The notes beneath the pieces were generated by a model. It was not told the origin of the DNA and did not search any database. It saw nothing but the letters and a program-made list of their open reading frames with translations. This document shows, piece after piece, positions 318-16,414 of a stretch of 32,124 nucleotides of DNA. Source of the DNA: Clostridia bacterium (GTDB taxonomy: Bacteria; Bacillota; Clostridia; Oscillospirales; CAG-272). Both the position numbers and the translations under genes were made by a program. Numbering within the stretch: position 1 is the first letter of the stretch; every line of letters begins with the position of its first letter. The DNA lies in NCBI GenBank assembly GCA_017628755.1, contig JAGBYM010000046.1, positions 1 through 32,124 of the forward strand. Direction: 5' to 3'.

Positions 318-2192
318 ATGAAAAGAAACATTTTTATCAGACTTACTGCTATGGCTCTTCTGATTGTGATGATGGCTTCCGCGCTTATCGCTTGTGAGCC
401 GCTCGATTCAGATAACGAAACAACAGTACCCGTAGCTGATCCCACAGAAGCTCCCGAGATCACCGGTGAGCCAGACGTTACCACCGACGAGGTTACCGAG
501 CCCGAGGCAACTACCGAAGCCGAAGTAACCACCGCGGCTCCCGAGGTAACCACCGAAGCTCCCTCGAACGAGATGAAGGATTACGTTGTAACTCCCGAAT
601 GGAAGCTCGGCTACGTAGGTTCCGCGACCAACTCAAGCTGGAAGGAAAAGCTCAACCCCACCGGCGGTCTGTATTCCTACAGTGACGTTATCAACCTCGG
701 CCCCGCAGGTTCTACCATCACCTTCACCGATGACAACACTAACGCGAACGGTGACGGAAACTTTGCTTCCGCTGCCGCTTACGTTTTCTCTTCCTGGAAG
801 AAGGTAAACGGTATCTGGAACATTGACACATCCGCGTACAAGGCTGACGGTGCTGATGCCGCGTATACCGATGCGAACGGCGCAAGAACCTATACTTATA
901 CCTCGACCAAGGATAACGAGTGCATCCGTCTCTGTTTCCGCTCCGGTCAGTCCAATTCCTTTACTCCCGCTGCATACCCCGTGGTAACCGTAACCTCCAC
1001 CAAGCAGCCCGTGGTTGAAAAGGACGATGCAGGTGCTGGCACAACCACTCCCACCACTCCCACCGGAACCGCTATGGACGTAAAGTGGAATGCAGGTTAC
1101 GTAGGTTCCTCCACCAACCCCTACGGTTACGCTAACGGTATCAACGCTACTGAGCAAAACTACGCTTACACCGACGTTATTGAGATTGCAAAGAAGGGAA
1201 CAAAGATCACCTTCACTGACACCAAGAACGGTTCTACCTCCGGCAACGCATACGTTCTTTCCTTCTGGAAGAAGGACGGCGATAAGTGGGTCATCGACAC
1301 CTCCAAGAACAATATCCCCGGCGGCGGTCAGTACGTAATCTCCACCGGCACCAATGGTGTTGTTTACACCTATATTTCGAGCGAAGACAACGAGTGCATC
1401 CGCTTCTGCTTCCGTTCGAACGGTACTTCCAACAAGCCTACTCTCTATTCCTCCACAACCACAGAGCCCGGCACTCTTCAGGATGTAATCAATGCATCTG
1501 CTGCACTTGAAAAGTGGATCGAGGAAGACAAGAACCGCGCGTTCTACGATATCCTCAAGGGCAAGACCTTCACCGTAATCGGCGATAGCTACCTTGCGGG
1601 TAACGGACTTGAGAAGGAACTCGTATGGCCTGCACTTCTCGCGAAGAAGTACGATATGGAATTCAACAACTACGGTATGAACGGCTCGACCATGTCGAAT
1701 TACGTTACCACCAATAACCCCATGGTTGTAAGATATACCAACATGGCTAACAACAATCCCGATATCATCATTATCGAGGGCGGACGTAACGACTACAACA
1801 AGAACGTTCCGATCGGTGAGAACGGTAGCACCGACACTAAGACCATGAAGGGTGCGGCAAGATTCCTTATCACCAAGGTTCAGGAGAGATATCCCAATGC
1901 TCTTATCATCTGCCTTACCGTTTGGGAAGTAGGTGGAAGCAAGAACTCTGCCGGCAACTACTGCAGCGACTACGGCCGTGCGCTTCTTGAAGTTTGCGCG
2001 GATATGGGCGTTCCCTGCATCAACGCAATGGATCAGGAAGCTACCGGTGTCAAGATGACAGATTCTGCCTTCAGAAGCAAGTACTGCATGAAGCCCACCG
2101 ATATCAGCCATCTCAACGCAGACGGTATGAAGCTCGTTTTCCCCGCATTTGAAAAGGCAATTGCTGATTTCTACGCGAAGAAGGGTTCATAA
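318..2192 (+). CDS. SGNH/GDSL-hydrolase lipoprotein with two repeated N-terminal domains
   Basis: Predicted cell-surface esterase of 624 aa. A lipoprotein signal peptide ends at the lipobox LIAC (Cys26) and is followed by a Thr/Glu/Pro-rich linker to about residue 85. Two homologous domains come next (about 95-235 and 252-390). Each has a GYVGSxTN start, an ITFTD segment, a SxWKK motif and a DNECIR-CFRS ending. The C-terminal third is an SGNH hydrolase: GDSY (Ser424, nucleophile), an Asn in GGRND (Asn491, oxyanion) and DISH (Asp595/His598, catalytic pair). Families of this fold deacetylate or de-esterify polysaccharides. The repeated domains may bind carbohydrate, but that is inference. The start is set by AAAGGAG eight bases before the ATG. 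The gene has its own promoter and terminator, so it is monocistronic. Confidence 0.85.
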   Translation: MKRNIFIRLTAMALLIVMMASALIACEPLDSDNETTVPVADPTEAPEITGEPDVTTDEVTEPEATTEAEVTTAAPEVTTEAPSNEMKDYVVTPEWKLGYVGSATNSSWKEKLNPTGGLYSYSDVINLGPAGSTITFTDDNTNANGDGNFASAAAYVFSSWKKVNGIWNIDTSAYKADGADAAYTDANGARTYTYTSTKDNECIRLCFRSGQSNSFTPAAYPVVTVTSTKQPVVEKDDAGAGTTTPTTPTGTAMDVKWNAGYVGSSTNPYGYANGINATEQNYAYTDVIEIAKKGTKITFTDTKNGSTSGNAYVLSFWKKDGDKWVIDTSKNNIPGGGQYVISTGTNGVVYTYISSEDNECIRFCFRSNGTSNKPTLYSSTTTEPGTLQDVINASAALEKWIEEDKNRAFYDILKGKTFTVIGDSYLAGNGLEKELVWPALLAKKYDMEFNNYGMNGSTMSNYVTTNNPMVVRYTNMANNNPDIIIIEGGRNDYNKNVPIGENGSTDTKTMKGAARFLITKVQERYPNALIICLTVWEVGGSKNSAGNYCSDYGRALLEVCADMGVPCINAMDQEATGVKMTDSAFRSKYCMKPTDISHLNADGMKLVFPAFEKAIADFYAKKGS

Positions 2193-2199
2193 TTCACAA

Positions 2200-2236
2200 A
2201 AAACAAAAGCCGCGCATATGCGCGGCTTTTGTTTTG
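2200..2236 (+). terminator. intrinsic terminator of SGNH lipoprotein gene
   Basis: A perfect GC-rich stem (arm AAAGCCGCGC, loop ATAT) flanked by A-rich and T-rich runs lies 8-45 nt after the stop codon. It is nearly symmetrical and could work in both directions. It also isolates the next operon from this gene. Confidence 0.85.
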
Positions 2237-2305
2237 TATGAAAGTAAAAATGTTCAAAAGATTGTCAAATTGTGTATTTTTTTGTAACTACTTGCGGATT
2301 ATCCA

Positions 2306-2334
2306 TTGACAATATTTAAAAGCTGTGATATAAT
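2306..2334 (+). promoter_or_regulatory. consensus promoter of the TIR/MinD/SpeD-like operon
   Basis: TTGACA (2306-2311), 17 bp, and TATAAT (2329-2334) preceded by TGTGA. The first start codon is about 85 nt downstream, so the mRNA has an AT-rich 5' leader in which I see no clear riboswitch or operator. No other convincing promoter is visible before the end of the operon. Confidence 0.85.
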
Positions 2335-2425
2335 TATTAATAATACTATTTATTACAATATGTAAGTAATTTTTGTACAATATTGTCTTTTTCAACAAAA
2401 TCCTGTGTTTGCGGAAGGAGTCATT

Positions 2426-3586
2426 ATGGCGGAATATTATTCCAGAGAAGAAATAATAAAAAGCGATTTTCTGTTTGTCAGTTATAAGCATGATGACCGC
2501 GATCTGGTAATAAGCACGGTTGACTATCTGATATCTCTCGGCGTGCGCGTTTGGTGCGACATTGATTTGCGTATGGGTGATAAATGGGATGAAGAAGTAA
2601 AAGAATTAATAGAGCATTCCAAATGTAAGGGCGTAATTTTTTTCAACAGCGTCCAAGCGTTTATGAGCGAAGCTATTGCCAAGGAGCGTGACCTGGTCAG
2701 AAAAAAGATAAAGGCGTCCGAAGAGGAAAATAATACTTTCCTTGTCTTGCCTGTCAATATAGGTAAACCTTCAACTGCACGATTGCTCAAAAAGACTTTT
2801 GAAGTCCTTGAAGATGATGATTCGGACATCAATCGGAATTTCCCTCTTGAATATATTAACGATATCATTGAATTATTTAAGAGTGAAACTATTTATGCAT
2901 ATGCCGATGACAGTACCGTTGAAAAGATTGGCCAAGACATTTACAAGAGCATTGAAATGCTCGCGCCTAAAGCTATCGACAAGAGTAAGGTTAAATTGAA
3001 AGAACTGACTCATCAGACGTCACGCACCGTTGGTGATATGCCGTGCATTCGGTTTGGGGAGTATAAAGGAGCTGCAGTTAAAAACCTACCCCAGTATATG
3101 CTCTCAAAAGACAGTGTGGTAGAATATTTTGGCGAACGGTATATAGTTGATGGCGGTAAGGCCTATACGCCGGTCGGTATAAATTGGCAATGTATTTACT
3201 GTGACGGCGATGAGACCTGTATGGTGAGTGAAGAAATACTCGATTCACGCATCGGAGGTACCGATCTTGATAATTGGCTGAATACTCAATTTATCCAGTT
3301 TGCATTCAGTGAAAAGGAACGTGAATGCATAATCGGCAAAGTGAGTCTTGTTGGAGAAAAAGATATTGAAGCGGCAGAATCAAAAGAGTTCCTTAAAGCG
3401 ACCTGTTCTGAAAACACCAATGAAAAGTACTGGTGGATAAATGCTTTCAGTATGGGAGTTATGCAAAAAGTCGTGCGTGAAGACGGTACGATATACGGCA
3501 AAGGTTATAACAGCCGCACAACCAGATCCGGGGTTCGCCCTATGATCAAGGTTGATATGAATAAGTTAAGCAATTTGTCAAAATAA
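2426..3586 (+). CDS. TIR-domain protein with C-terminal DUF6273-like domain
   Basis: First gene of the candidate conflict operon, 386 aa, no signal peptide. Residues about 13-130 form a TIR domain: FVSYKH (17-22), WCDIDLRMGDKW (43-54), then FFNS, Ser81 and Glu87 in the SxxxxxE arrangement of the catalytic glutamate. Bacterial TIR domains of this kind cleave NAD+ or make signalling nucleotides from it. Residues about 195-386 resemble DUF6273: LDNWLNTQF, FSEKERE, YWWINAF, and a GVRPMIKVDM ending. That module is usually found on Clostridia surface proteins, so its fusion to a cytoplasmic effector is unusual; it may be a sensor or binding part. I chose the ATG at 2426, with GGAAGGAG upstream, over a GTG 21 bases earlier. 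The next gene starts 30 nt downstream. Activity is inferred. Confidence 0.85.
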   Translation: MAEYYSREEIIKSDFLFVSYKHDDRDLVISTVDYLISLGVRVWCDIDLRMGDKWDEEVKELIEHSKCKGVIFFNSVQAFMSEAIAKERDLVRKKIKASEEENNTFLVLPVNIGKPSTARLLKKTFEVLEDDDSDINRNFPLEYINDIIELFKSETIYAYADDSTVEKIGQDIYKSIEMLAPKAIDKSKVKLKELTHQTSRTVGDMPCIRFGEYKGAAVKNLPQYMLSKDSVVEYFGERYIVDGGKAYTPVGINWQCIYCDGDETCMVSEEILDSRIGGTDLDNWLNTQFIQFAFSEKERECIIGKVSLVGEKDIEAAESKEFLKATCSENTNEKYWWINAFSMGVMQKVVREDGTIYGKGYNSRTTRSGVRPMIKVDMNKLSNLSK

Positions 3587-3616
3587 AAAAGATAATAAAA
3601 GCAGGAGGATTTTTCC

Positions 3617-5962
3617 ATGGCTATTAAAAATATCGCGGATAGAGCTATCGCAGAAAACATAAGAGAGCTTGTTCTGAATGACGAATCGGATTCTATATTT
3701 AACAAGTATAGGAATAAAACAGAAATTGGCGAATTGATATTCAAGGATCTGTATTCTACCTATACGGAGCCCAAACGAATCGAAGGTAAGAAGAATAATA
3801 AAGGCGTAGGTTTCTGTCTGACAGACAAGGATATCGGTCTTCTTTCTCAGTGCCAGTCGCTACAGGCAATGCTGTTACTTGCTTCCGAATTTAACCTGGA
3901 CTTCGATACCGATTATACGCCGAAAGGCACAGGCTCCACGATCAGACAAATCATGGACGATGTTATCGACGATTTGTTGTCAGACAAGATAAAAAAAGAG
4001 GACGGTAGATTCGTTTTTGATGCGTCTCCGTATGAGGAAGAGTTGTTTACTGCAGAATATTCCAATATTGACGCTATACGTTGGGTAGTAACCACATTCC
4101 TTCTTGTTCTTAAATACCATGCTGAACAGCATGAAATATGTAAATGGGAAGACGATCTTATTAATATTATTTCATACGGTATGAAATACATTAATGAGGC
4201 ATTTATCGGTAATTATAATCTGACTGAAGAAAATACCAGCGAAAAGCTTGAAATTGGCTGGAACTTTACCAAAGACTGTGAAGAACCGTCTCTGTTCTAT
4301 ACCTTTGCGGTTTGTGAGTGCTATATAAGCTTTTACAGAACCTTTAAAGACCATCTCGACTATTTGTATGCATGCAGAACAGCAGAAGAGACTGATAATC
4401 TCATTCCAATCCCCGAAAGATTAGCTTTGTATGAAAAAAACAGAGAAGAAGATGAAATTAAAAACTCTGATAAAACAAAGAAAAGATATAAAGATGAAGT
4501 AAATAAACTCAGAGAGATAGCACAGTACGATACTCCTCATGATTTATGCCGTATTTATAAAAAAATCAATGGAATTCTTGAAGGAGATCCTTCAAGAATT
4601 GAGAACACGGTTTATGGTGAACTCGAACTGCGGTGTAAGGCGGTATCGAAAGAAATCTGGCGCTTGGTAAAAGACGGTTTCGCGGACAGTTTTTACTATA
4701 ATGATCTTCATTCCAAAATCAGCCAGGATGATATCAAAATGAGTACCACGAGTGACGCGCTCTTCAACAGCGTTTATATTATTAATACAATAATTGACGC
4801 CGGTCTCGATGAAGATATAATGAGTAATCATACCCACGCTAAAGCACTGGAAGAAAATGCTCAGAAAAAAGGAGAAGACGCTAAAGTAGTAGATGCGTTT
4901 GCAGAGGAAGCTGAAAAATATCTCAGAGATTATAACGAGCTTCTTGAAACCTGTCAGCTTGCTTCTCAGAAGGCATTGAGATCTTATGAGATCCTTAAAA
5001 AGGAAGGTAAGGAATATATCGTTGACCAGTTCCTTATCGGTTTTAACGAGAGCTTTAACACGCACAAAGACCTTATTAAAGAACTTCGTAAGCGCCGTAT
5101 GAGAGTTTTCTCACTCCTTCCTATGCTTATCAGAACCAACAACCTGATCAGTGAGTATCTCGTAAGATATCCTCAGGTGAGCATGAGTAAATACCTCGGA
5201 TATATTCTGGATAACCGCAGAAAGGGTAAGGGCAGTAAAGTATTCTGGATGTGGGAAGCTGATGGATTCTTCAGCGCAAGTAACTATTATTACGTAGCTG
5301 CGCTTGGTCAATTCTATGCCTACCACAAGGAGTATGAGGAAAGCTATATTGATATTTCAGATGTTAATGCAACCAAAAAGCAAGAGATCCGTGAAGAGTA
5401 CAAGCGAGAACTTGAACTCGACGGTGAAATTGCTCAGCTTAACACAAAATTGAGGGATAAAACAGCTGAATTTGAAAAATCCCTCGCCGATAAAGACAGG
5501 GAGATTGCAAATCTTAACGCTAAAATCGCAAGTCATCATAGTCCCATCGAAGATGCTGTTGTGTCGGTTGTTGAGGATACGATAAGAAAACAGCTTCCGA
5601 TGCTGTTCTGTGATTATTTAAATTCTGCCGCTGAGTCTTATGCTAAGCAGGAACTTGACCGCAGACAAAAGGGAAAACCGAATTATGTTACCAAAGATAT
5701 TGACGAAAGAAATAAAGTCAAATCTGCGGAAAAATTAATTGAAGCTTTTGAAAAGATTTTTGTAGCTTATTTGAGTAAAACGATTTATGCAGAAATAGAT
5801 GTTTCTGATGAAAAAGTTGACAAACAGTATAAAGAAAAGTCCGAGGGAATTTTAACAGAAACCAAGACATGTCTTGGCGGATATGCTATTAATATTATAC
5901 ATGGTAAGGTTCCTGAGGCAGATGTTCTGTTCCCTAAAGGTGATTCTAAGGAGGATAAATAA
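3617..5962 (+). CDS. large helical/coiled-coil protein of unknown function, conflict operon
   Basis: Unrecognised 781-aa cytoplasmic protein. It is Lys/Glu-rich with almost continuous predicted helix. Around residues 590-655 there is a heptad-like coiled coil (EIAQLNTKLRDK, DREIANLNAKIA). A WVVTTFLLVLKYH segment near residue 155 looks like a buried helix of an alpha-solenoid. I see no signal peptide, no membrane segment, no Walker motif and no nuclease motif. It lies between a TIR effector and a MinD-like ATPase, so a scaffold, adaptor or sensor role is plausible; this is inference from context. The start has AGGAGG eight bases upstream. The ribosome binding site of the next gene is inside its last codons, so the two are tightly linked. 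Confidence 0.8.
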   Translation: MAIKNIADRAIAENIRELVLNDESDSIFNKYRNKTEIGELIFKDLYSTYTEPKRIEGKKNNKGVGFCLTDKDIGLLSQCQSLQAMLLLASEFNLDFDTDYTPKGTGSTIRQIMDDVIDDLLSDKIKKEDGRFVFDASPYEEELFTAEYSNIDAIRWVVTTFLLVLKYHAEQHEICKWEDDLINIISYGMKYINEAFIGNYNLTEENTSEKLEIGWNFTKDCEEPSLFYTFAVCECYISFYRTFKDHLDYLYACRTAEETDNLIPIPERLALYEKNREEDEIKNSDKTKKRYKDEVNKLREIAQYDTPHDLCRIYKKINGILEGDPSRIENTVYGELELRCKAVSKEIWRLVKDGFADSFYYNDLHSKISQDDIKMSTTSDALFNSVYIINTIIDAGLDEDIMSNHTHAKALEENAQKKGEDAKVVDAFAEEAEKYLRDYNELLETCQLASQKALRSYEILKKEGKEYIVDQFLIGFNESFNTHKDLIKELRKRRMRVFSLLPMLIRTNNLISEYLVRYPQVSMSKYLGYILDNRRKGKGSKVFWMWEADGFFSASNYYYVAALGQFYAYHKEYEESYIDISDVNATKKQEIREEYKRELELDGEIAQLNTKLRDKTAEFEKSLADKDREIANLNAKIASHHSPIEDAVVSVVEDTIRKQLPMLFCDYLNSAAESYAKQELDRRQKGKPNYVTKDIDERNKVKSAEKLIEAFEKIFVAYLSKTIYAEIDVSDEKVDKQYKEKSEGILTETKTCLGGYAINIIHGKVPEADVLFPKGDSKEDK

Positions 5963-5965
5963 ACA

Positions 5966-6937
5966 ATGAGTAACAAAACACACACCATATCATTTTTCTC
6001 TTATAAAGGCGGCGCAGGAAGAAGCACGCTTGCTTATAATATTATTCCTATACTTGCCAATAAGTCTTTCAAACCCACTAAAGAAAAGCCAATGATCATT
6101 ATCGATACCGATGTTGATAGCTGCGGAATGTCATATCTTGTCGGTGTAAAAAAAGAGAATATTACCACTGAAAACTGTGTTCAGTATCTTCTCAGCCACG
6201 GATGCGATACTTCTCCTGCGATAAGATCTGTTGCGGCTCATCCGTTTTTGAGCAAGCTTTGTCCCGTAGGAAATGCTTACGGCTATCCTGAGAATGAAGC
6301 AATTCTTCTTATGCCCGCAAAAGACGGTATGGCTATTACTGGAAGAGATAATTACGGCGACAAGGACGAACCTTTCTCCAAGAAGATTGACAGCTTCCTT
6401 ACGGTATGTAACAATTTGGGTATACCCGCTGTTATTTTTGACTCCGCGGTCGGTAATACTGCAACTGCCAACATTTCCAATGAAGCATCCGAAATCATCG
6501 TGTGTTGCATGCGTCCGACAACTCAGTTTACAGACGGTACCGAGCGTTTCCTCAAATCACTCGAAAATATGGATAGCGATGAGATCGGAAAGTCTTTTTC
6601 CAAGAAGAATATTATTGTAGTTCCCAATGCTATTCCGCGCGGAGAAACCGTAATCAACGGAGATAAATATCCAGACACAGCATTCAGCAAGATCCGAAAT
6701 AATTTTGAAAATCGATTCATACCCGGAAGAACAATCCATAACTATTATTTTAATATGCTTGATAGACAAGAATTCGGAATTCCGGTTGTTGATAGATTTA
6801 TGTGGTACGAGGATATTCTTTATACTCGTCAGGATCTTGACGCTAACGAGAAGCTTGCTTTGGACAGATATGAAAAGCTAGTTGGAATAATTGATGATGT
6901 TCTTGAAGAAATCGACAATGATTCGGAGGACTTTTAA
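5966..6937 (+). CDS. MinD/ParA-like P-loop ATPase (KGGAGRST type)
   Basis: Protein of 323 aa of the SIMIBI (MinD/ParA) class. It has a deviant Walker A, SYKGGAGRST (residues 12-21), with the signature lysine at Lys14; the usual P-loop lysine is Arg19. It also has an A' motif, IIIDTDVDSCGMS, and a Walker B-like VIFDSAVGN. Relatives bind ATP and dimerise to position or switch partners. From general knowledge, KGGxGR-type ATPases also turn up beside TIR-like proteins in actinobacterial FxSxx-COOH loci, which agrees with its place here. There are no par sites, no ParB and no membrane-targeting helix in the neighbourhood, so plasmid or chromosome partitioning is unlikely. The gene starts 3 nt after the preceding stop with AGGAGG inside the upstream gene. 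The next gene starts 3 nt after its own stop. Confidence 0.88.
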   Translation: MSNKTHTISFFSYKGGAGRSTLAYNIIPILANKSFKPTKEKPMIIIDTDVDSCGMSYLVGVKKENITTENCVQYLLSHGCDTSPAIRSVAAHPFLSKLCPVGNAYGYPENEAILLMPAKDGMAITGRDNYGDKDEPFSKKIDSFLTVCNNLGIPAVIFDSAVGNTATANISNEASEIIVCCMRPTTQFTDGTERFLKSLENMDSDEIGKSFSKKNIIVVPNAIPRGETVINGDKYPDTAFSKIRNNFENRFIPGRTIHNYYFNMLDRQEFGIPVVDRFMWYEDILYTRQDLDANEKLALDRYEKLVGIIDDVLEEIDNDSEDF

Positions 6938-6940
6938 TTA

Positions 6941-9241
6941 ATGAGTGACCTTGCTTTTGAAGAACGCAATCAACAGTATAGAGCCAGATTGCAATATATT
7001 GAAGATGTGTTCAGAAACAAGATTACCGATCCGAACATTAGGTTTTATATCTTTAACAGCACCGAAAACAGAAAATGCGCAAACAAAGTAACCGATTACG
7101 TAAGTTATATTAATAACATTATGAAATTGGCGTTTGTTTTCGCATACGGATGTTTTAGGCTTGATTCCATTGATGAGCAGTCGTGCTGTGAAAGAGCAGT
7201 TAGAACCAGTTCTCTTCGAATAATCAACAGTTTGAAAAAAACATACGTTCAATATCCCGCAACCCCCGATCTTATCGAATTTGTTCTTACAGATATTCAG
7301 TTTGATATGATGCAGGGCTCAAATAGTGAGCTTTACGAGATATTCGAGCATCTTGGTAACTTTTCAAACAGAAATTTCAGCCTTTCCAGGTATTTTAAGC
7401 TCATAAAGACCTGGCTTAGCTGTCCTTCGAGATTTTCTATGGATCCGAATGAGTTAGCAGCTCGTTTTGCTTTGTTCCTGGATAATATGACTTTCCTCAG
7501 CAACTATAAGCTCGTTGAAAATAAGGATGCAGGCGATTTCTATTTTATAGAAAAAAAGGCAGAATTGTTTGATCAGTATGATAAATTCAGTATGATCCCT
7601 GCAAATCATCTTTTGTTCAGAGATGACGAAAAGTACTATGGAATATATACTTTGTTCGGATGTGACAGAAGAGATGACAAGGAGACAAAACTTAATCTTC
7701 GCTATATTTCCAGTGACGGATACACCTCAATTAACGTAACTGCTTCGGAAACGCCCCCCGAAGATGAATCCTATGGTATTATAGTTAACCCCGAGGAGTA
7801 TTATTCGGAGATTACTGGAACGTCTATGTCGGCGTCAGATCCCGAGGAAGGACAGAATCCGAACTCAAATTTTATTAACCAGGTACATACGATAAACTAC
7901 AAATATATAAAAAACTTAGCTCTTGCGGTTTCTGATGCTATATCGGGAAATATAGGTGCGCGAAAAGTTTTACTCGACGCTTTCAGAGTTCACCATCCAA
8001 ACATCTTTATTCGTGAAGGCAGAAGCACTGATATTCTCGAAAGCGCTGCGGATTGGGACGGCATAACAGTTATGTTACTTATAGAAGCCAGTCCCACGCG
8101 AGTGCTTGAGGTCCTGTTTCATAGAGAGCCTCAAACCTTCTATGATATATCCAAGAATTTATGCAAGCGAATAGATAATCCTGATATGCCTATTTACGGT
8201 TGCAATAACGCAATGTTGGATAAAAAGGTGGATGAGATTATTTGTTCTCACCGTATTGACGACGAATCTATTCGTAAGTGGCGAAACAGTAAGGTTGGCG
8301 GTAAGCTTTATGCTAAAGCTGCAGCAATTCTGATTATTTCCTCGCTCTCTTCGCTTATGGAAGAAGAAAGCGACGAAAAGCTGATATGCGTAGGCAATAT
8401 TCATGAGAACTTATCGTTGCTTACAAAGATGAGCTCGGAACCCCCCGATGACAAGACCGTACAAAACGTTTCTGCTATACTTGGCGAAACCTTCAGACGT
8501 TTGAATTGTTTTTATAAAGGCATCGAGGCATACGGAGCTATCAAAGCGCTGTTTGATAACGAATCAAGCGACTGTTGTCTTTCCAGAGCGAAAGTAAAAG
8601 TGTATCAGACTCAACTGAAAAACGCTTTTATGGAGTCTGCCAAAGCAGAGGCTCAAAGACTCGCCGGATATGATTCAACGAGAAACCAAGATACTGAGTT
8701 TATTATTAAAGAGTTTATTAAACTGTGCAATCAGTGTTCTTCTTCTTCGAACATGGGCGATAATTCGGGAAGAAGTTTGTATGTTACCCTGGGCAAATAT
8801 GAAATTATGAACGTAAATGAATTCAAAAACCGCGTATCTGCGTTTTTTGGTACTTACGGTGATATCGATCATTTGGATGAATCCGGTATTAAAGCTTATA
8901 TTCAGCTTGCATTGGATATTCTGAAGTTCTTGATTTTCGGTAACTTTGACAGTGGTGCCACAACCGGTATACCGATAAATGCAGTATATCCTTTGTCTGC
9001 TACCTACAGCAGAGGAAATGAAAATTACGACGGATATAAAACCGCAACGTTCACGTTGAATATCGATATGGATTTTGATGAAATCAACGATAAAGAGGAT
9101 GTGAATGTGCTTACCGAATTCTTCCACGTTCCGGGCGACGTATTTTACTGTCTGCCCAACGTTCTGAGATCCAACAAGAAATGGTGGATTGACCCGATTC
9201 TTGTAGGCTTCAAGGAATTCAATGAAATATTCACAAAATAA
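6941..9241 (+). CDS. 766-aa protein of unknown function, conflict operon
   Basis: I do not recognise this protein. It appears soluble and mostly helical, with a long middle helical part (about residues 320-620). The last 130 residues look more strand-rich (TATFTLNIDMDFDEIND) and end in an aromatic segment, KKWWIDPILVGF. There is an acidic, low-complexity break near residues 255-300 that may separate two domains. No enzyme motif is obvious. A strong GGAGG site lies in the last codons of the ATPase gene and only 3 nt separate the two reading frames, so it is probably made in fixed proportion to the ATPase and is a likely partner. A threat-recognition role is speculation from position and size. 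Confidence 0.8.
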   Translation: MSDLAFEERNQQYRARLQYIEDVFRNKITDPNIRFYIFNSTENRKCANKVTDYVSYINNIMKLAFVFAYGCFRLDSIDEQSCCERAVRTSSLRIINSLKKTYVQYPATPDLIEFVLTDIQFDMMQGSNSELYEIFEHLGNFSNRNFSLSRYFKLIKTWLSCPSRFSMDPNELAARFALFLDNMTFLSNYKLVENKDAGDFYFIEKKAELFDQYDKFSMIPANHLLFRDDEKYYGIYTLFGCDRRDDKETKLNLRYISSDGYTSINVTASETPPEDESYGIIVNPEEYYSEITGTSMSASDPEEGQNPNSNFINQVHTINYKYIKNLALAVSDAISGNIGARKVLLDAFRVHHPNIFIREGRSTDILESAADWDGITVMLLIEASPTRVLEVLFHREPQTFYDISKNLCKRIDNPDMPIYGCNNAMLDKKVDEIICSHRIDDESIRKWRNSKVGGKLYAKAAAILIISSLSSLMEEESDEKLICVGNIHENLSLLTKMSSEPPDDKTVQNVSAILGETFRRLNCFYKGIEAYGAIKALFDNESSDCCLSRAKVKVYQTQLKNAFMESAKAEAQRLAGYDSTRNQDTEFIIKEFIKLCNQCSSSSNMGDNSGRSLYVTLGKYEIMNVNEFKNRVSAFFGTYGDIDHLDESGIKAYIQLALDILKFLIFGNFDSGATTGIPINAVYPLSATYSRGNENYDGYKTATFTLNIDMDFDEINDKEDVNVLTEFFHVPGDVFYCLPNVLRSNKKWWIDPILVGFKEFNEIFTK

Positions 9242-9271
9242 GATGCGCACAAATTTTAAGCGGAGGCATTA

Positions 9272-10084
9272 ATGTTAGCAACACGTCACTATATGATTGA
9301 CGCGTATGGTTGTATTTCCGAACAGACGAACAATTATATGCTTGTCAATGATTTTTTGATAAATATTACTCATAAATTAAATATGGAGCCCGTAATGCCT
9401 CCGTTTATTTTGCCATATTATTACTGTGAGGACGCTGAAGACGTTGGTATAAGTGCATTTTGCATTTGCGACGAAGGATCTCATGTTACAATTCATACCT
9501 TCCCGCAAAGATCGTGTTACTTTATTGACATATTGACCAACTCTTTTATAGAAGAAGAAGGAGTGGCAGATTTTGTTAAAAGTCAGCTTTACGCCGGCAA
9601 TCTTCAGATACACACGGTTGACAGACGCGACTTTGATCCGGACGCAAGTAACGTGGACTCCAGAAACGATTTTGGCCCTCATTATATGGCAAATATAAAC
9701 GATTTGGATATTTCATTTGAGTCGATTTACCGTTGGCTTGATACCATAGCCCCCCAGATCAATATGCAGCCTATATCGCGTCCGTATGTTATTTACAATA
9801 CGGTGAGAGATGCCGAGTATATTTCCGGTATTCTTGTGGTTGCTCAAAGCCATATAGCGTTCCATTATTCTATTGAAGATCGAGTAGCAAATGTAGATAT
9901 CTTCTCATGCAGCTTCCTTGGTAACGGTGTGGTAGAATCACTGCTTGAAGAATGCTTCGGAGCTAAAGTAAAGTTGAAGCTTTTTGCCCGCGGAAGCAAG
10001 CACAGGATCGAATGCCAGCATTATTCCAGACAGTCACGAATTGAAAAGTGCCAAAGCTGGCGAAAGAATATTTACGATATATGA
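9272..10084 (+). CDS. duplicated S-adenosylmethionine decarboxylase-like (SpeD fold) protein
   Basis: Protein of 270 aa with two tandem AdoMetDC-type folds. Each half opens with an HYM motif (RHYMIDAYGC at 5-14; GPHYMANI at 135-142) and contains the SH-x3-H core. Copy 1 has GSHVTIHTFP with Ser70 and His75 but Asn90 where the catalytic Cys belongs. Copy 2 has QSHIAFHYSIE with Ser193, His198 and Cys213 (VDIFSC), exactly at the Ser63/His68/Cys83 spacing of bacterial SpeD. In SpeD the serine becomes the pyruvoyl group by self-cleavage after a Glu; here that preceding residue is Gly or Gln. No polyamine gene is nearby; the context is a TIR/MinD-like operon. It could decarboxylate SAM, a SAM-derived signal or an amino acid (SpeD homologues with ornithine/arginine decarboxylase activity are known), or it could be a ligand-binding relic. 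The substrate is unknown. Confidence 0.75.
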   Translation: MLATRHYMIDAYGCISEQTNNYMLVNDFLINITHKLNMEPVMPPFILPYYYCEDAEDVGISAFCICDEGSHVTIHTFPQRSCYFIDILTNSFIEEEGVADFVKSQLYAGNLQIHTVDRRDFDPDASNVDSRNDFGPHYMANINDLDISFESIYRWLDTIAPQINMQPISRPYVIYNTVRDAEYISGILVVAQSHIAFHYSIEDRVANVDIFSCSFLGNGVVESLLEECFGAKVKLKLFARGSKHRIECQHYSRQSRIEKCQSWRKNIYDI

Positions 10085-10410
10085 GACCCGCCATGGAAAA
10101 GTACGCATGGAAGGCGCGGATCGTTCCGGGTGCGCTTGACGAATATATCAGACGTCACGATGCAATCTGGGATGAGATGAAGCAAGTCCTGGCAGATGCC
10201 GGAATCGTTAACTACACGATCTGGAACGTCGGAGACGAGCTTTTTGGCTATTATGAATGCGAGATGGGCATCGAATACGCTGCGCGCGTTCAAAGAGAAA
10301 GCCCCGTAGTTGAGAAGTGGAACGAGTACATGAAGGATATCCTTATCATGGAACTCGACCCCATAACCGGCGCACAGCCGAAACTCACAAAGGTGTTTTC
10401 GTTTAAGTAA
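10081..10410 (+). CDS. rhaM: L-rhamnose mutarotase
   Basis: RhaM/DUF718 family: interconverts alpha and beta anomers of L-rhamnose ahead of rhamnose isomerase. The fold is recognised from WKARIVPG, the RRHDAIWDEM block with the family's conserved His, and NYTIWNVGDELFGYYE. The family is about 104 aa long. Starting at 10093 (MEKYAWKA) gives 105 aa. Starting at 10081 gives 109 aa and overlaps the previous stop as ATGA. There is no Shine-Dalgarno in front of either, so translation probably depends on coupling to the SpeD-like gene. Codon use changes sharply here to the GC-richer host style, which suggests the upstream operon was joined onto a resident rhaM. No other rhamnose gene is present in the window. 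Confidence 0.85.
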   Translation: MRPAMEKYAWKARIVPGALDEYIRRHDAIWDEMKQVLADAGIVNYTIWNVGDELFGYYECEMGIEYAARVQRESPVVEKWNEYMKDILIMELDPITGAQPKLTKVFSFK

Positions 10411-10417
10411 ATATCTC

Positions 10418-10452
10418 AAGCGGAGAGATCGAAAGGTCTCTTCGCTTTTTTG
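10418..10452 (+). terminator. intrinsic terminator of the conflict operon/rhaM
   Basis: Stem AGCGGAGAGATC with a GAAA loop pairing to GGTCTCTTCGCTT, followed by a T run, 8 nt after the rhaM stop codon. Confidence 0.8.
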
Positions 10453-10545
10453 GACTCAATATAACACAAAGTGAGAAAAAGTCTCGCATGATGAGTTATT
10501 GCAAAAGATAAAAAACTATGCAAGACTGCAGTAAATAAAAGAAAG

Positions 10546-10575
10546 ATCCCGTATCTGTTTTTGCAGATACGGGAT
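10546..10575 (-). terminator. intrinsic terminator of the peptide-utilisation operon
   Basis: Perfect 12-bp stem (ATCCCGTATCTG) with a 6-nt loop, just downstream of the stop of the M20 gene on the minus strand and followed on that strand by a T-rich tract. It also backs up the rhaM terminator from the other side. The 90 bases between the two terminators show nothing else. Confidence 0.8.
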
Positions 10576-10585
10576 TTTACTTTTA

Positions 10586-11737
10586 TTAAACTATAGCGCA
10601 GAGTATTTGGAGTGCGATGCGGAGAGAGTCCTCGTCGGGGGCGAGACAAGAGCTGTGGAGCACTTGGTCGTCGCCTTGGGATTTGCTGCGGCATCCAATG
10701 TTGAAATAACAGCAGCGTGCGTGCTTACAGAAAAATGCAAAATCGTCTGCGCCGAGGCTCGGAGCGTCCATCTTTTGTATATTGTCTTTACCGATCAAAG
10801 CGGCGATCTTACCTATGGTATTCTCGGTCAGCTCAGACTCGTTGTAAAGCACGGGATATTCGGTGGTGTAATTGATCTCTGCCGAGGCTCCAAAGCCCTG
10901 TGCGGTATTCTCGCAGGTCTCGCGGACGGTATCTTTGAGCTCTGCCATAACGTCCATATCGAGCGCGCGCAGAGTTCCGCTCATTTTCACTTCGCCCGCA
11001 ACTACGTTTTCTGCCGTACCGCCGTTGATCGTTCCTACTGTCACGATCGTGGGCGTGGTTGGTGCAAATCTTCGCGACGGGATTGACTGAAGCGCGGTGA
11101 CTATTCCCGCGGCGGCAACGATTGCGTCGATGCCTTGTTCGGGATGTGCGCCGTGGCATGATCTGCCGCGTACGGTAAGCTCAAAATCTGTAACAGCGGC
11201 GTTCATAGCACCTATGAGATACTCAACCGTTCCCGTCTTCTTCGTGGGAGAGATATGGAATCCGAAAACCGTGCGGACTTCGGGATTCTGCATACATCCG
11301 TGCAGGATCATATCGTTTGCGCCGCCAACGGTTTCCTCGGCGGGTTGGAAGAAGACGCGGACAACGTGATCGAGCTCTTTTTCGTACGGTTTCAGCAAGA
11401 GAAGAAGTCCGAGTGCTGCGGCAAAATGGATATCGTGTCCGCAGGCGTGCATAACGCCGTCGATTTTTGAAGCGTATTCAAGTCCGGTTTCCTCTGTGAC
11501 CGGCAGAGCATCAAGCTCGGCGCGTACGCCAACAGCATCACTTCCTTGACCGACAGAGGCAACTACGCCGCAGTTGTCGGGCAGAACCGTGTATGCAATA
11601 TTGTTTTTATCAAGAACGTCACAAAGGTACGCGGTGGTTTCTCTTTCTTCGCCCGAAAGCTCGGGGTACATATGCACGTGGCGGCGTATTCCGATCACTT
11701 CGGGGAGAATGCGGTCTATTTCGCAAGAAAGGTTCAT
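10586..11737 (-). CDS. M20-family amidohydrolase / N-acyl amino acid hydrolase
   Basis: Zinc-dependent peptidase or aminoacylase of 383 aa, cytoplasmic. The M20D landmarks are all present: RRHVHMYPELSGEE at 18-31, RAELDALPV at 72-80, HACGHDIH at 97-104 (Cys99 and His101 metal region), QPAEE at 131-135 (catalytic Glu region), GADDFAFF, and the LHSSCLAPDE ending. Relatives cleave N-acyl-amino acids, aminobenzoyl-glutamate or dipeptides. It is the last gene of the opp operon; its ATG shares one base with the stop of the upstream amidohydrolase gene (TGATG), so the two are translationally coupled. Together they probably hydrolyse what the transporter brings in. The exact substrate is not visible. 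Length and motifs indicate an intact enzyme. Confidence 0.9.
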   Translation of the reverse strand: MNLSCEIDRILPEVIGIRRHVHMYPELSGEERETTAYLCDVLDKNNIAYTVLPDNCGVVASVGQGSDAVGVRAELDALPVTEETGLEYASKIDGVMHACGHDIHFAAALGLLLLLKPYEKELDHVVRVFFQPAEETVGGANDMILHGCMQNPEVRTVFGFHISPTKKTGTVEYLIGAMNAAVTDFELTVRGRSCHGAHPEQGIDAIVAAAGIVTALQSIPSRRFAPTTPTIVTVGTINGGTAENVVAGEVKMSGTLRALDMDVMAELKDTVRETCENTAQGFGASAEINYTTEYPVLYNESELTENTIGKIAALIGKDNIQKMDAPSLGADDFAFFCKHARCCYFNIGCRSKSQGDDQVLHSSCLAPDEDSLRIALQILCAIV

Positions 11738-12876
11738 CAGTCTACCTGCTTGCCGTCCATGAAGACCATGCGTGTCTTGGTCAGATAGTGGAAGGGATGG
11801 CCGTTGTAGACAACGATATCGGCGTCCTTGCCGACCTTGATCGAGCCTACGCGATCCTCAATGCCGCAAACCTTTGCGCCGTTGAGGGTGATTGCACGGA
11901 ATGCCGCCTGCTCGTCGAGTCCTTCGCGTACTGCGAGTCCCGCAAAGTAGGGAAGCATCCAGAGAGCGCAAACGTCGTGGTCGGTTGTCAGAGTGAATTC
12001 AACACCCGCACGCGCAAGCTCTGCGCACATTGCAAGGTTTCCGCCAACAGTTTCGGGCTTGCCCGCGGGACCGATGCAGGGGCCGACGATGGGCATAATG
12101 CCCGCGCGTGCGATCTCCTCGATGATGTCCGAGCCGCCCGTGGTGTGTACGGTCACGCAACGGAGATTGAATTCCTCAGATAGGCGTATGGCGGTGAGAA
12201 TATCGTCACTGCGGTGCGCGTGGACATGCATGGGGATCTCGCGCTTGAGAAGCGGGATGAGAGCTTCGTATTTTGCATCGAAAACGTCGTCGCCCTTATC
12301 TTTCTTTGCCATGTATCTCTTGGCTTCAACCATCGTTCTGCGGAAGATTGCGGCGATTGCCATGCGGGTCATGGGAGTTGAACCGCCCGATTCACCGTAA
12401 TTGCGCTTGGGATTTTCGCCCATTGCGCATTTCATTGCCGCGGGAGTCTTGATGACCATATCCGCGATATTTCTGCCGTAAAGCTTTACAGCGGCGGTCT
12501 GACCGCCGATTACGTTTGTCGAGCCGGGGCAAGCGTTGACGGTTGTGATACCCGCGCGTCTTGCCTTCGGGATAGCGATGTCAAAGGGATAGAAGCCGTC
12601 CATTACGCGCATATCGGGGGTTACGGGATTGGTTGTCTCGTTGCAGTCCTCACCCTCCCAGCGCTTTCCTTCCTCGGAAATACCGATGTGGGAGTGCGCG
12701 TCGATCATACCTGGGAAGATGAATCCACCCTCGGCATCAAATATCTCGCCGTCGAATACGGGCGCATCGGCAAGTGCACCGAAGCCGATTATCTTGCCGT
12801 TTTCGATATCAACGTAACCGTTTTGGTAACTGCCGCATTCAACGGTGTGCAAGAGACCATTCTGTATACGAATCAT
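11737..12876 (-). CDS. amidohydrolase (imidazolonepropionase/dipeptidase-like)
   Basis: Metal-dependent amidohydrolase of 379 aa. PGMIDAHSHIG gives the HxH metal pair (His61, His63); further ligands are suggested by HVHAHRSDD, CVTVHTTGG and the late Asp in TTDHDV. The end, DRVGSIKVGKDADIVVYNG, is the usual return to the small beta domain. Members include imidazolonepropionase, isoaspartyl dipeptidase and prolidase-type enzymes; the sequence alone does not settle which. The gene lies 12 nt after the small membrane-protein gene and overlaps the M20 gene by one base, so it should act on substrates imported by the Opp-type transporter encoded upstream. Confidence 0.87.
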   Translation of the reverse strand: MIRIQNGLLHTVECGSYQNGYVDIENGKIIGFGALADAPVFDGEIFDAEGGFIFPGMIDAHSHIGISEEGKRWEGEDCNETTNPVTPDMRVMDGFYPFDIAIPKARRAGITTVNACPGSTNVIGGQTAAVKLYGRNIADMVIKTPAAMKCAMGENPKRNYGESGGSTPMTRMAIAAIFRRTMVEAKRYMAKKDKGDDVFDAKYEALIPLLKREIPMHVHAHRSDDILTAIRLSEEFNLRCVTVHTTGGSDIIEEIARAGIMPIVGPCIGPAGKPETVGGNLAMCAELARAGVEFTLTTDHDVCALWMLPYFAGLAVREGLDEQAAFRAITLNGAKVCGIEDRVGSIKVGKDADIVVYNGHPFHYLTKTRMVFMDGKQVD

Positions 12877-12888
12877 AATTATTTCTCC

Positions 12889-13356
12889 TTATTGCGGAAT
12901 TACGAAAGATGCGATCAAGAGCAGCACTCCCGCCGCAACGCGCGAGATTATCAGCGCGAACGAGCGCCGTTTTTCGCTGAATATCTCGATATCTGCGGTT
13001 GTCTGCGGAGTGAGATCGTCTTCAAAATCCTCGCCTTTTTGCATAAAGGCGGGCTTGTGACGCTTGATCTCTTTATCCTTGCGCCAAGCGTAAGGAGTTT
13101 TTGTCTTTCGGGGTTTTTGTTTGTGAAAGAAGGGAAGCGAATCGGTCAGCTTAAGGTATTCAAACCAGCCGAAGGCGATGAATATTGAACCGATAGCGCA
13201 GAGTGCCCAGATGAAATGCATTCTGTCACGGTAGAGTCCGCCGACGATGGCGGACAGGACGAGTCCCGTGCCGAGATATGAAAAGGTTCGGCGGAAGAGC
13301 ACAAGACGGTATTTCTTGGCTTCTTCCGGAGTCATGCGGTCATCGGGAGATTTCAT
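12889..13356 (-). CDS. small membrane protein of unknown function in opp operon
   Basis: Protein of 155 aa, not recognised. Hydrophobic stretches at about residues 26-42, 47-63 and 133-152 suggest three membrane segments, the last at the very C-terminus. Between them is a highly charged loop rich in Lys, Arg and Asp. The start overlaps the end of the ATPase gene by 17 nt, which implies co-translation with the transporter. It could be an accessory subunit, but nothing in the sequence proves that. Confidence 0.75.
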
Positions 13357-15442
13357 TCATATATCCTTCCATCTCTTTTGCGTTTGCGTAGATAAAGTGA
13401 CCGGGAGTGATTTCGGTCCATGCCGGCTTGTCGGTCGAGTAGTCGTGCATATCGGGATCGTACTTGACGAGAACCTTGTCTCTTTCGGTATCGGGATTAG
13501 GCTGAGGAACAGCAGAGAGCAGAGCCTTGGTGTAGGGATGAAGCGGATGTGCAAAGAGTTCCTCTGCGGGAGCAAGCTCAACGAGATGTCCCTTGTGGAT
13601 TACTGCGATACGGTCGGAAATGAATCTGACGGCAGAGAGGTCGTGCGCAATGAAGAGATAGGTCAGCGAACGCTCGCGCTTCATCTTGTTGAGAAGGTTG
13701 ATTACCTGCGCTCTAATCGAAACGTCAAGCGCGGAGATCGGCTCGTCAGCAACAAGAAAATCGGGATTCATAATAAGGCTTCGCGCGATACCGATTCTCT
13801 GACGCTGACCGCCCGAAAATTCGTGCGGGAAACGGGAGATGAATTCTGCGGTCAAGCCAACCTCGGAGAGGATGCTTTCGACCTTTGCGATTCTGTCCTC
13901 CTCATTTTCAAAGAGGTGGTAATTGTAAAGACCTTCCGAGATGATGTAATCGACCTTGGCACGCTCGTTGAGAGATGCCATGGGGTCCTGGAAGATCATC
14001 TGCATCTGCATGTGCAGCTTCTTTTTATCGGCGCGCGAGAGCTTACCCGTGATCTTCGAACCGTTGAATTTAACTTCTCCGTCCACGTTGTTCGTGTAAA
14101 TACGCATAATAGCGCGTCCGATGGTGGTCTTACCCGAACCCGATTCGCCGACAAGCGACAGAGTTTCGCCTTTGTAAATATCGAAGCTTACGCCGTCAAC
14201 TGCGCGGAAGGTGCTGCCTGCGATCTTGAATTTTACCGAAAGATCGCGGACTGTGATAAGCTTTTCAGCGTTTGTATAATCAAAGGGCTCTTCGGGGATC
14301 TGATTTTCCTTGCGTTCCGCGTCGCGCTTGATGAGTGCTTCTCGGTAATCCTTTGCCTGAGGGGAAAGAAGCCAAGTTCTTGCCCAATGAGTTTCGCTGA
14401 CGGGGAAGACGGGAGGCTCTTCCTCAAAGTCGATCTTCATTGCATCGGCGTTGCGGGGTGCGAACGCGTCACCCTTGATAGTCTTGAAAAGGCTTGGAGG
14501 TGTTCCGTGAATAGAATACAGGTCATTGCCTTTGGTTCCAAGCTGGGGAAGGGACTGGAGGAGTGCTTTAGTATAGGGATGCTCGGGGGATTTGAAAATA
14601 TCGTGTACGGTTCCGTACTCAACGATCTTGCCCGCGTACATTACTGCGACCCAGTCGGCAACGTTTGCAACGACGCCGAGGTCGTGGGTAATGAACACGA
14701 CGCTCATTTTGAGCTCCTTCTGGAGCGATTTTATAAGGTCAAGCACCTGAGCCTGAACGGTAACGTCAAGCGCGGTGGTGGGTTCGTCGCAGATAAGAAT
14801 TTCGGGTCTGCAGGCGATTGCTGTAGCAATAACTACTCGCTGGCGCATACCGCCGGAAAACTCTCCGGGATACTGCTTATAACGCTTTTCGGGATCCTGA
14901 ATACCTACCTTGTGGAGAAGCTCGATTGTTTCCTTCTTGGCTTCGTCGTGGGACTTGCCGAAATGCCACATGATAACTTCCGCGATCTGTTCGCCGATAG
15001 TGCGGACGGGGTTGAGCGAGGTCATGGGATCCTGGAAGACCATTGCAATCTTCTTGCCGCGGACCTTAAGCCACTGCTCCTCGGAGGTGTACTGAGCCAT
15101 ATCCTCGCCGTGGAACCAGAGCTCACCGTCCGTGATGCGTCCGTTTTTATCGAGCATACCGAGGAAGGTCTTGGTAAATACCGATTTACCCGAACCCGAT
15201 TCGCCGACGATGGCAAGAGTTTCGCCCTCGTAAACGTCAAGCGAGGCACCGCGGATAGCGGTAAGCTCCGCACCACGGAGGTTGAAGTTTACCTTGACGT
15301 TTCTTGCAGAAAGCAATTTCTCGCCCTTGTGGTAGGGAGCGCTCTGATCAATGATCTCTCTTTCACGTTCGATTCTTTCGATTTCTTCGGGTGTCAGTTC
15401 GGCTTTCTCGATAGGGAGCACAGTCTTTTTGTTCTTTTTCAT
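13340..15442 (-). CDS. oligopeptide ABC transporter, fused double ATPase (OppD-OppF type)
   Basis: ATP-binding protein of 700 aa that joins two nucleotide-binding domains normally encoded by separate oppD and oppF genes. Domain 1 has Walker A GESGSGKS (80-87), the signature FSGGMRQR and Walker [13 protein letters not shown]. Domain 2 has [17 protein letters not shown] and [12 protein letters not shown]. Each ends with the HPYTKALL motif typical of the oligopeptide/dipeptide subfamily. Both domains keep the catalytic Glu after Walker B, so both sites look competent. It powers uptake through the two permeases encoded just upstream (12 nt gap to oppC). The fusion fixes the 1:1 ratio of the two ATPases. 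Confidence 0.93.
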
Positions 15443-15454
15443 CTCGGTGCTCCT

Positions 15455-16414
15455 TTATACGTGGTTTCTGGGGTCGGATGCGTCTGCGAACTTGTTGCCG
15501 AGGTAGTAGAATGCAACAGTAATGATGCAGAGAACAGCCGCGGGCAGAAGCATCTGGTAGGGGTGAAGAGTGAAGGATGCGCGTCCGTGGTTGACCATGT
15601 TTCCGAGAGTGATCGCGTCAACAGGCATACCTACGCCGACAAATCCGAGGAATACCTCGGAGCCGATCGAGTAGGGTATGCAGAGGGCGGCTTCCATGAT
15701 AATAAGGCTGATGATATGGGGGATGATGTTGCGGGTTGCAATACGGCGCATGGGAGTGCCGAGGCACTGGGATGCGATATTGTATTCGGCATCGCGGATA
15801 GAGAGGATTCTGTTTCGGAAGAATCGCGCTTCAACGATCCATCCGCGCGACGCCATTGAAATGAAGAGCGTGATAAAGCTCGTGTTCATAATATAAGCCA
15901 ACAAAACGAGGTATACCGTTGAAGGTACATTGGTCATGATATTGTAAACTTCGATCATAATGGGGTCGAGCTTTTTGTTGTAACCCCAGAGCGCGCCCAT
16001 TATCATACCTATTCCGACGTCGGAAAGAGCAATACAGAACGCCAGAATGAAGGAGTTGCGGCAGCCGTACCAAGCGCGGGCGAAGATATCTCTGCCGAGC
16101 GCGTCGGTGCCGAAGGGATGCTTGAAGCTCGGGCGGTGATTCCAGTCAAGAGGATTGATAGATACCTTGGTGGGATCGATCGGTGAGAAGACCGGATACA
16201 GAAAGCTCATAAGCAATATGACGGATACAAGCACGCAAAGTGCGATGACCGCCTTTGATTTAAAGAAGGTGCGAAGGGTCGATCTCCAATAGGAATAGTT
16301 GGAGGCACCCGTTTTTTCGCTTTCCATGGCGCTGAATTCCGCGGGCTCGAAGAGTGCGGGATCACGCATCAGGGAATTATGAAGTGAGTTTAATTTCTTT
16401 TCGGAATGGTTCAT
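15455..16414 (-). CDS. peptide ABC transporter permease (OppC/DppC type)
   Basis: Inner-membrane permease of 319 aa. It has the OppC-type cytoplasmic N-terminus, a first transmembrane helix near residue 55, and the family hallmark HPFGTDALGRDIFARAWYG at about residues 93-111. The EAA loop that docks on the ATPase is AEYNIASQCLGTPMRRIATR, followed by the last membrane helices. It pairs with the OppB-type permease encoded 28 nt upstream and precedes the fused ATPase gene by 12 nt. Confidence 0.92.
   Translation of the reverse strand: MNHSEKKLNSLHNSLMRDPALFEPAEFSAMESEKTGASNYSYWRSTLRTFFKSKAVIALCVLVSVILLMSFLYPVFSPIDPTKVSINPLDWNHRPSFKHPFGTDALGRDIFARAWYGCRNSFILAFCIALSDVGIGMIMGALWGYNKKLDPIMIEVYNIMTNVPSTVYLVLLAYIMNTSFITLFISMASRGWIVEARFFRNRILSIRDAEYNIASQCLGTPMRRIATRNIIPHIISLIIMEAALCIPYSIGSEVFLGFVGVGMPVDAITLGNMVNHGRASFTLHPYQMLLPAAVLCIITVAFYYLGNKFADASDPRNHV

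Follow-up and report, generated by a model that had tools for sequence, protein, structure and literature searches.

Organization of the locus

The stretch of DNA analysed here, referred to below as the window, comprises 32,124 nucleotides (nt) from a Clostridia bacterium (assembly GCA_017628755.1, contig JAGBYM010000046.1, positions 1 to 32,124). It carries an operon of five genes, also called the cassette below, which encode a TIR protein, two large proteins without a recognised family, a MinD/ParA-like ATPase and a fused pair of SpeD domains. An initial annotation, made from the sequence alone, had described positions 2306 to 10410 as a single unit with one promoter, five genes and one terminator, and had proposed it as a candidate conflict system. 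Comparison with related loci shows that the operon is real and modular, with a four-gene core and an exchangeable fifth module. The features of the locus are as follows, lengths being given in amino acids (aa):

2306 to 2334, + strand: predicted promoter-like site of the sigma-70 type upstream of the cassette, TTGACA-17-TATAAT with TG, 12 of 12 consensus positions matched
2426 to 3586, + strand: gene 1, TIR protein (386 aa), TIR domain N-terminal, ATG at 2426 with AGGAG upstream
3617 to 5962, + strand: gene 2, large protein without recognised family (781 aa)
5966 to 6937, + strand: gene 3, MinD/ParA-like ATPase (323 aa), P-loop KGGAGR[ST], in the window KGGAGRST
6941 to 9241, + strand: gene 4, large protein without recognised family (766 aa)
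9272 to 10084, + strand: gene 5, fused pair of SpeD domains (270 aa)
10093 to 10410, + strand: rhaM, L-rhamnose mutarotase, ATG at 10093, 78.1 bits to rhaM; downstream by position and outside the system
10418 to 10447, + strand: terminator-like hairpin followed by a T run, -20.3 kcal/mol, z -5.1, 3' of rhaM

The five genes are co-directional and intact, and the gaps between them measure 30, 3, 3 and 30 nt, as had been described. Counted from a GTG at 2405, the open reading frame (ORF) of gene 1 would span 2405-3586 and 393 aa. The single consensus promoter was likewise recovered. A scan of positions 1500-12000 yielded 27 promoter sites of all qualities compared to 24.2 (standard deviation 4.1) in shuffled sequences, and the site at 2306-2334 is therefore notable only for its quality and its place. 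The preceding gene ends in its own terminator-like hairpin at about 2200-2235.

The distal end of the unit needs to be corrected. The hairpin thought to close the operon exists, although the pattern scan that gave the promoter site missed it; it is located after rhaM and not after the SpeD gene. Similarly, the five genes of the proposed unit were confirmed, whereas its end coordinate takes in a sixth ORF, rhaM, which had not been named. As a candidate for a sixth component, rhaM was ruled out based on its GC content at third codon positions (GC3) of 0.613 and a counterpart with 78 % DNA identity at a congener locus that lacks the cassette. In addition, by ORF reading and with no family search made there, rhaM does not lie 3' of the SpeD gene in any of the three other SpeD-type loci. 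It is a resident gene and not part of the unit.

Related loci and the conserved core

Relatives of the operon were mainly found by means of the two large proteins. A sequence search with protein 4 matched two of 245 genomes of the taxonomic order, the window's own and G120, and a protein-4 profile matched four of 394, adding the remote genomes G1036 and G1021. Scanning the contigs of GTDB 220 with the protein-2 alignment gave 52 pattern matches, of which three were confirmed as L005 (in G120), L006 and L007. L004 and L005 are one contig and were counted once, and L001 to L003, like other hits repeating the window, were not treated as separate. This leaves six distinct loci, all of which hold the complete core of TIR protein, protein 2, ATPase and protein 4; four of them have the SpeD pair, and two a GNAT domain.

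L005, L006 and L007, metagenome-assembled genomes titled Oscillospiraceae, contain all five genes in the order of the window. Compared with the window proteins, the SpeD pair of gene 5 is the most conserved of the five (54-56 % identity), followed by the ATPase (46-48 %), protein 2 (40-41 %), protein 4 (32-33 %) and the TIR protein (26-32 %). Whichever of the five genes is compared, L006 and L007 are most similar to each other, and the window is the outlier. The two remote loci, L028 (G1036) and L029 (G1021), keep the order of TIR protein, protein 2, ATPase (here KGGAGRTS) and protein 4. Homology of the core between these two loci and the SpeD type is supported by the best BLASTP E-values per protein, which range from 1e-37 to 3e-15, and by hhalign probabilities of 98.7, 99.5, 99.9 and 99.5 %, for the TIR protein over 101 columns only.

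Homologues found mostly apart from each other, or always within a metabolic locus, would have spoken against a common system. All six loci found via the large proteins hold all four core genes, and the window locus is no metabolic operon for these genes. The view that all five genes form the unit holds in part, with the same order in four distinct loci and no SpeD gene in the other two of the six.

Searches with ATPase profiles revealed no further cassette. Among 398 genomes of the phylum there were two matches, the window's own and G860 (7.6e-7), which was rejected because its context is unrelated and reads as a Tad/Cpa pilus-type locus. Three of the 391 genomes of the class matched, namely the window's own and, each with a remote KGGVGR protein, G338 and G407. 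The core provides a defined target for testing, since two large families without a recognised domain accompany a TIR effector and a MinD-like ATPase at all six loci found.

Core proteins

Gene 1 matches TIR_2 (PF13676) with 44.6 bits (cut-off 28), and TIR_2 was also matched in all six relatives. Among structures, its profile matches AbTIR (6.7e-5) and TIR-SAVED (0.0096). One glutamate (Glu86 in alignment numbering, Glu87 from the ATG at 2426) is invariant at all six loci and aligns with a glutamate of structure 3h16 and of TIR-SAVED 7qqk, the residue that is catalytic in other TIR enzymes. Because it is kept at only 18-32 % identity to the window protein, the invariant glutamate suggests that the TIR protein is catalytic. 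The C-terminal part of the protein shows a weak likeness to DUF6273 in three of the six relatives (best E-value 0.001).

For the ATPase, the KGGAGR motif and several aspartates are invariant in six of six proteins. All six relatives match the KGGVGR-motif ATPase family NF047398 at an E-value of 0.001 or better. The window protein reaches 51.5 bits, below the curated cut-off of 90, and was therefore filed as related to this family and not as a member. A match to the ParA-like phrog_164 (1.3e-5) was also found.

Proteins 2 and 4 have relatives at all six loci and gave only chance-level matches to Pfam, for protein 2 also when checked in six relatives. Further matches at chance level were obtained from PADLOC (0.009, protein 2) and from PHROGs (0.0012 and 0.0078 for the large proteins). 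Against the PDB, protein 2 gave E-values of 0.085-0.56, mostly to coiled coils, with a possible coiled coil near residues 590-650, and it is mostly helical in a low-confidence model; protein 4 had no PDB match. The possibility that the two are mutual paralogues found no support (hhalign probability 0.4). Their large size, the lack of recognised enzyme domains and their conservation together with the effector are consistent with a role as sensor and scaffold.

The exchangeable fifth position

Gene 5 matches AdoMet_dc (PF02675) with 82.5 bits (cut-off 25) over two stretches, in agreement with the duplicated SpeD fold proposed for it. In L028 and L029 no SpeD gene lies beside the core, and protein 4, here 961-962 aa long, has a GNAT domain at its C-terminus; the Pfam match of the L028 protein stands at 1.9e-10, and the L029 protein is 72 % identical to it. 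The SpeD gene is thus an exchangeable fifth module, absent from two of six loci, where protein 4 carries a GNAT domain instead. This exchange at one position is a natural experiment on the role of that position.

The two halves of the SpeD pair differ in their residues. The C-terminal half carries the sequences AQSHIAFHYS and, further on, DIFSC in each of the four cassette proteins and keeps Ser193, His198 and Cys213, which correspond to S63, H68 and C83 of Thermotoga maritima, essential there according to PMC10407285. Ordinary SpeDs read SESHLAIHTFP and then DVFTC (three with a recovered motif of seven tried). The N-terminal half retains the serine and histidine and has Asn or Asp where ordinary SpeDs have the catalytic cysteine. 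Preceding the pyruvoyl serine, all four cassette proteins have Gln, whereas Glu is found in the three ordinary SpeDs, in both polyamine-operon relatives and in three phage SpeDs with a recovered motif.

It had been proposed that the SpeD-like protein alters S-adenosylmethionine (SAM). This is disfavoured by a score of 65.4 bits to the true AdoMet decarboxylase TIGR03330, below the equivalog cut-off of 75.65, by the lack of a proline and by the nearest relatives outside the cassettes, which stand beside speE and a separate SpeD. One proline is fully conserved in true AdoMet decarboxylases and not in arginine decarboxylases (PMC10407285); we take it to be that of H-T-F-P in the three ordinary SpeDs, for which the H-Y-S of the C-terminal half has no counterpart. 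Fused SpeD pairs have been reported, two of which decarboxylate ornithine; in one of these the activity was assigned to the C-terminal half (PMC10407285). The lacking proline together with these active fusions suggests that the SpeD pair may act on a substrate other than SAM. Gln, Thr, Phe and Tyr are described as diagnostic of the ornithine decarboxylase group SpeDC (PMC10407285), and Gln, Phe and Tyr are present near the cassette SpeD site, a match by occurrence that is not placed on the diagnostic positions.

The relatives outside the cassettes were found with a profile of the SpeD pair, which gave 12 matches in the 391 genomes of the class. The window's own, G426 and G463 scored at least 170 bits; the other nine, at 18.8-22.4 bits, were in the range of ordinary SpeDs and were not considered further. 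In G426 and G463 the fused pairs belong to polyamine operons with speE and another SpeD, in G426 also with a gene that reads as speB-like. Like the fusions of PMC10407285, the pairs at L020 and L021 (33 and 31 % identity to the window pair) share two SpeD domains in about 270 aa with gene 5. They differ in context and sites: the reported fusions are located upstream of speE and restore spermidine, and speE also neighbours the pairs at L020 and L021, while the cassette operon has no polyamine gene, and its pair has Gln before the pyruvoyl serine and no cysteine in the N-terminal half. The four SpeD-type hosts gave AdoMet_dc matches for gene 5 alone, and in none of them does a spermidine synthase score over the cut-off, with sub-cut-off matches in G120 and G1151. 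A role as the host's own spermidine enzyme is disfavoured by this result.

An alternative is that the pair is a catalytically dead sensor or decoy, which would bind arginine, ornithine, SAM or a polyamine, or mimic a phage SpeD, and signal either the amount of this ligand or interference by phage to the ATPase, with no decarboxylation. The Gln in place of Glu, the substituted cysteine of the N-terminal half and the hosts without a recognised spermidine synthase fit this explanation, as do phage SpeD homologues with shifted substrates, described in PMC10407285 and PMC9992855. Against it speak the intact Ser, His and Cys of the C-terminal half in all four proteins and the conservation of gene 5, which is as expected of an enzyme; moreover, a Gln is among the residues named as diagnostic of the ornithine decarboxylase group (PMC10407285), and the cassette Gln may correspond to it. 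We regard this sensor as possible, if on the unlikely side.

Composition and signs of acquisition

The block had been noted to be more AT-rich than its surroundings, and the measurements agree: GC3 is 0.37-0.42 in the five cassette genes and 0.53-0.74 in the 11 other window genes measured, rhaM included. The GC content of the cassette is also lower than that of its flanks in L028 (0.376 vs 0.477), in L029 (0.314 vs 0.413) and slightly in L004 (0.427 vs 0.464).

A syntenic locus could be located in only one congener (G1154, L060). Its SGNH gene is 80 %, its rhaM 78 % and the right-hand side 85-90 % identical to the window. Positions 2244-10092 of the window have no BLAST counterpart within 19.5 kb of this locus, and the cassette ATPase was not found in the G1154 genome. 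In L060, rhaM lies upstream of the SGNH gene and is placed differently in the window species. The site was therefore rearranged as well as invaded and does not represent a clean empty site.

The distribution is patchy. Within the genus, the ATPase profile detected the cassette in the window's own genome and in none of its 12 congeners. In the family of G1036, one genome out of a sample of 76 matched, and in that of G120 one of nine, in both cases the carrier already known. Many of the genomes in these sets are incomplete; in the genus, a completeness of 90 % or more with contamination of 5 % or less is reached by only three of the 13.

The cassette of L028 is flanked on both sides by a direct repeat pair of 510 nt (5393-5902 and 13291-13800), copies that are 95.7 % identical and read as the end of a folC-like gene, as if the four-gene cassette had entered there with a duplicated gene end. 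Taken together, the GC3 gap, the missing counterpart in the congener, the patchy distribution and the L028 repeats indicate that the five-gene operon was apparently acquired horizontally in the window genome, that of a gut bacterium. A different repeat is present in L004, where a direct repeat of 398 nt with 91 % identity (13671-14050 and 15557-15954) overlaps a ferritin-like gene and flanks a BspA-type leucine-rich repeat gene just downstream of the SpeD gene.

Comparison with known systems

The operon shares the TIR domain and its conserved glutamate with known TIR-effector systems, and gene 1 matches the PADLOC profiles TIR-SAVED (1.1e-9, limited to the TIR part, profile positions 14-131 of 404), Aga_TIR (1.4e-4) and ThsB (5.4e-4). 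It differs from Thoeris ThsB, CBASS TIR-SAVED and Aga TIR-PNTD in that the cassette proteins have no SAVED, ThsA, Argonaute or cyclase match, and in proteins 2 and 4, which are of no recognised family. For Thoeris, ThsA gave no PADLOC match at E-values up to 1 among the five proteins, the rest of the genome not having been searched; for CBASS, neither a SAVED domain nor a cyclase match was found among the five. MinD/ParA-like ATPases are also tied to conflict genes in the vWA and VMAP systems (PMC7159879). There the effector MinD/ParA-like domains are predicted to be inactive, whereas the cassette ATPases are stand-alone proteins of 302-323 aa with the P-loop kept.

The gene set matches no named system in PADLOC-DB 2023, as had been supposed. 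A description of the operon was not found there or in the literature searches made, which covered few subscription papers and preprints, nor did these searches show a SpeD-type protein recruited from polyamine synthesis into such an operon.

Interpretation

The gene set looks like that of a cell-suicide or defence system, possibly one directed against phages. We interpret it as a TIR-effector conflict operon, gained by horizontal transfer, in which a four-gene core is combined with a swappable enzyme for a small molecule. Its role would most likely be abortive defence against phages or other mobile DNA, and the interpretation as a whole has a probability of about 0.62. Proteins 2 and 4 would form the sensor and scaffold, and the KGGAGR MinD-like ATPase would act as a nucleotide-driven switch or assembly factor. 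Upon activation, the TIR protein would cleave nicotinamide adenine dinucleotide (NAD) or make a nucleotide signal, and growth of the cell would stop. The fifth position, a SpeD pair at four loci and a GNAT domain fused to protein 4 at two, may hold the swappable small-molecule enzyme. In the SpeD type, the C-terminal half probably cleaves itself to yield a pyruvoyl enzyme whose substrate would be not SAM but arginine, ornithine or a similar compound. This enzyme may be a second effector, or it may control the complex by producing or consuming a gating ligand.

Several findings weigh against this interpretation. Only six loci are known, four of them in the taxonomic order of the window and two in records titled Oscillospiraceae, and the composition is not foreign in L006 (cassette GC 0.386, flanks 0.393) or L007 (0.537, flanks 0.504). 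The initial annotation had suggested looking for known defence genes near the cassettes; none was recognised among the neighbours scanned, which were only some of them, and those in the window are metabolic or transport genes. Apart from one match at chance level, PADLOC hits were limited to partial ones for the TIR domain and the P-loop. No relative was confirmed in six pattern scans of viral contigs with genes 2, 3, 4 and 5, or found on plasmids with genes 2-5, the TIR gene not being searched in either. In a phage collection searched with genes 3 and 5 only, gene 3 had no match and gene 5 gave weak SpeD matches in six records. The AlphaFold models of proteins 2 and 4 (predicted local distance difference test scores of 48.9 and 51.8) are too poor for fold searches. 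Since the host genomes G000 and G120 are only 73 and 77 % complete, a gene not found in them may still be present. Among hosts of the GNAT type, G1036 encodes both SpeD and spermidine synthase at other places in its genome, and G1021 has neither.

Part of this evidence would also suit a growth-arrest module of toxin and regulators that is triggered by stress or competition and not aimed at phage or mobile DNA. TIR enzymes are found in many contexts, no defence gene was recognised among the scanned neighbours, and the phage and plasmid searches described above gave no relatives. However, the patchy distribution and, at part of the loci, the foreign composition and insertion-like flanks fit a mobile defence system better than a housekeeping stress response, and we consider such a module unlikely. 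Very unlikely is a positioning system of the MinD/ParA type, in which the ATPase would place a complex of proteins 2 and 4 and the TIR protein would be a non-catalytic scaffold: the P-loop and aspartates of this class are kept and phrog_164 is matched, whereas a TIR glutamate that stays invariant in such divergent proteins suggests catalysis. A polyamine biosynthesis operon with accessory genes is hardly credible despite the SpeD domains and their nearest non-cassette relatives in polyamine operons, given TIR and ATPase genes as neighbours, two of six loci with GNAT instead of SpeD, and four of four SpeD-type hosts without a spermidine synthase over the cut-off.

The conflict operon could also be a new class of immune system, in which a TIR-armed, ATPase-switched complex would be gated by, or act through, amine or polyamine chemistry. 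The enzyme at the fifth position would then be a pyruvoyl decarboxylase, forming an amine signal from arginine or ornithine, or alternatively a GNAT enzyme that acetylates such an amine, and loss of NAD would be set off by phage tampering with polyamines or by the amine itself. Phages are reported to carry polyamine genes (PMC9992855). This extended version is speculative and quite unlikely as a whole. If the SpeD-type enzyme is active, the operon would link amine metabolism to cell-suicide immunity.

Additional observations

The two remote KGGVGR proteins of G338 and G407, weakly related to the cassette ATPase, have surroundings that are in keeping with the conflict interpretation. At L034 (989-3454 and 3736-6815), the KGGVGR-type ATPase is a protein of 821 aa; its neighbours are a SIR2 protein, matched in PADLOC at 4.8e-117, and a gene that is HerA-like by reading and consists of two ORFs as read. 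At L035, a weakly related KGGVGR ATPase lies beside genes that read as restriction specificity-like.

Directly 5' of the TIR gene, a gene for a YkgJ-like CxxCxxCC protein is present in L006 (8279-8872) and L007 (8336-8866), and thus at two of the six loci only; it was weighed as a possible further component.

In the Microcystis phage MaAM05 (L062, 1-1351), speE is preceded by two neighbouring SpeD genes. The motif of one is the ordinary SES...HTWPE, that of the other AES...HSF, which lacks the proline. The two may encode an AdoMet decarboxylase and, next to it, a decarboxylase of arginine or ornithine.

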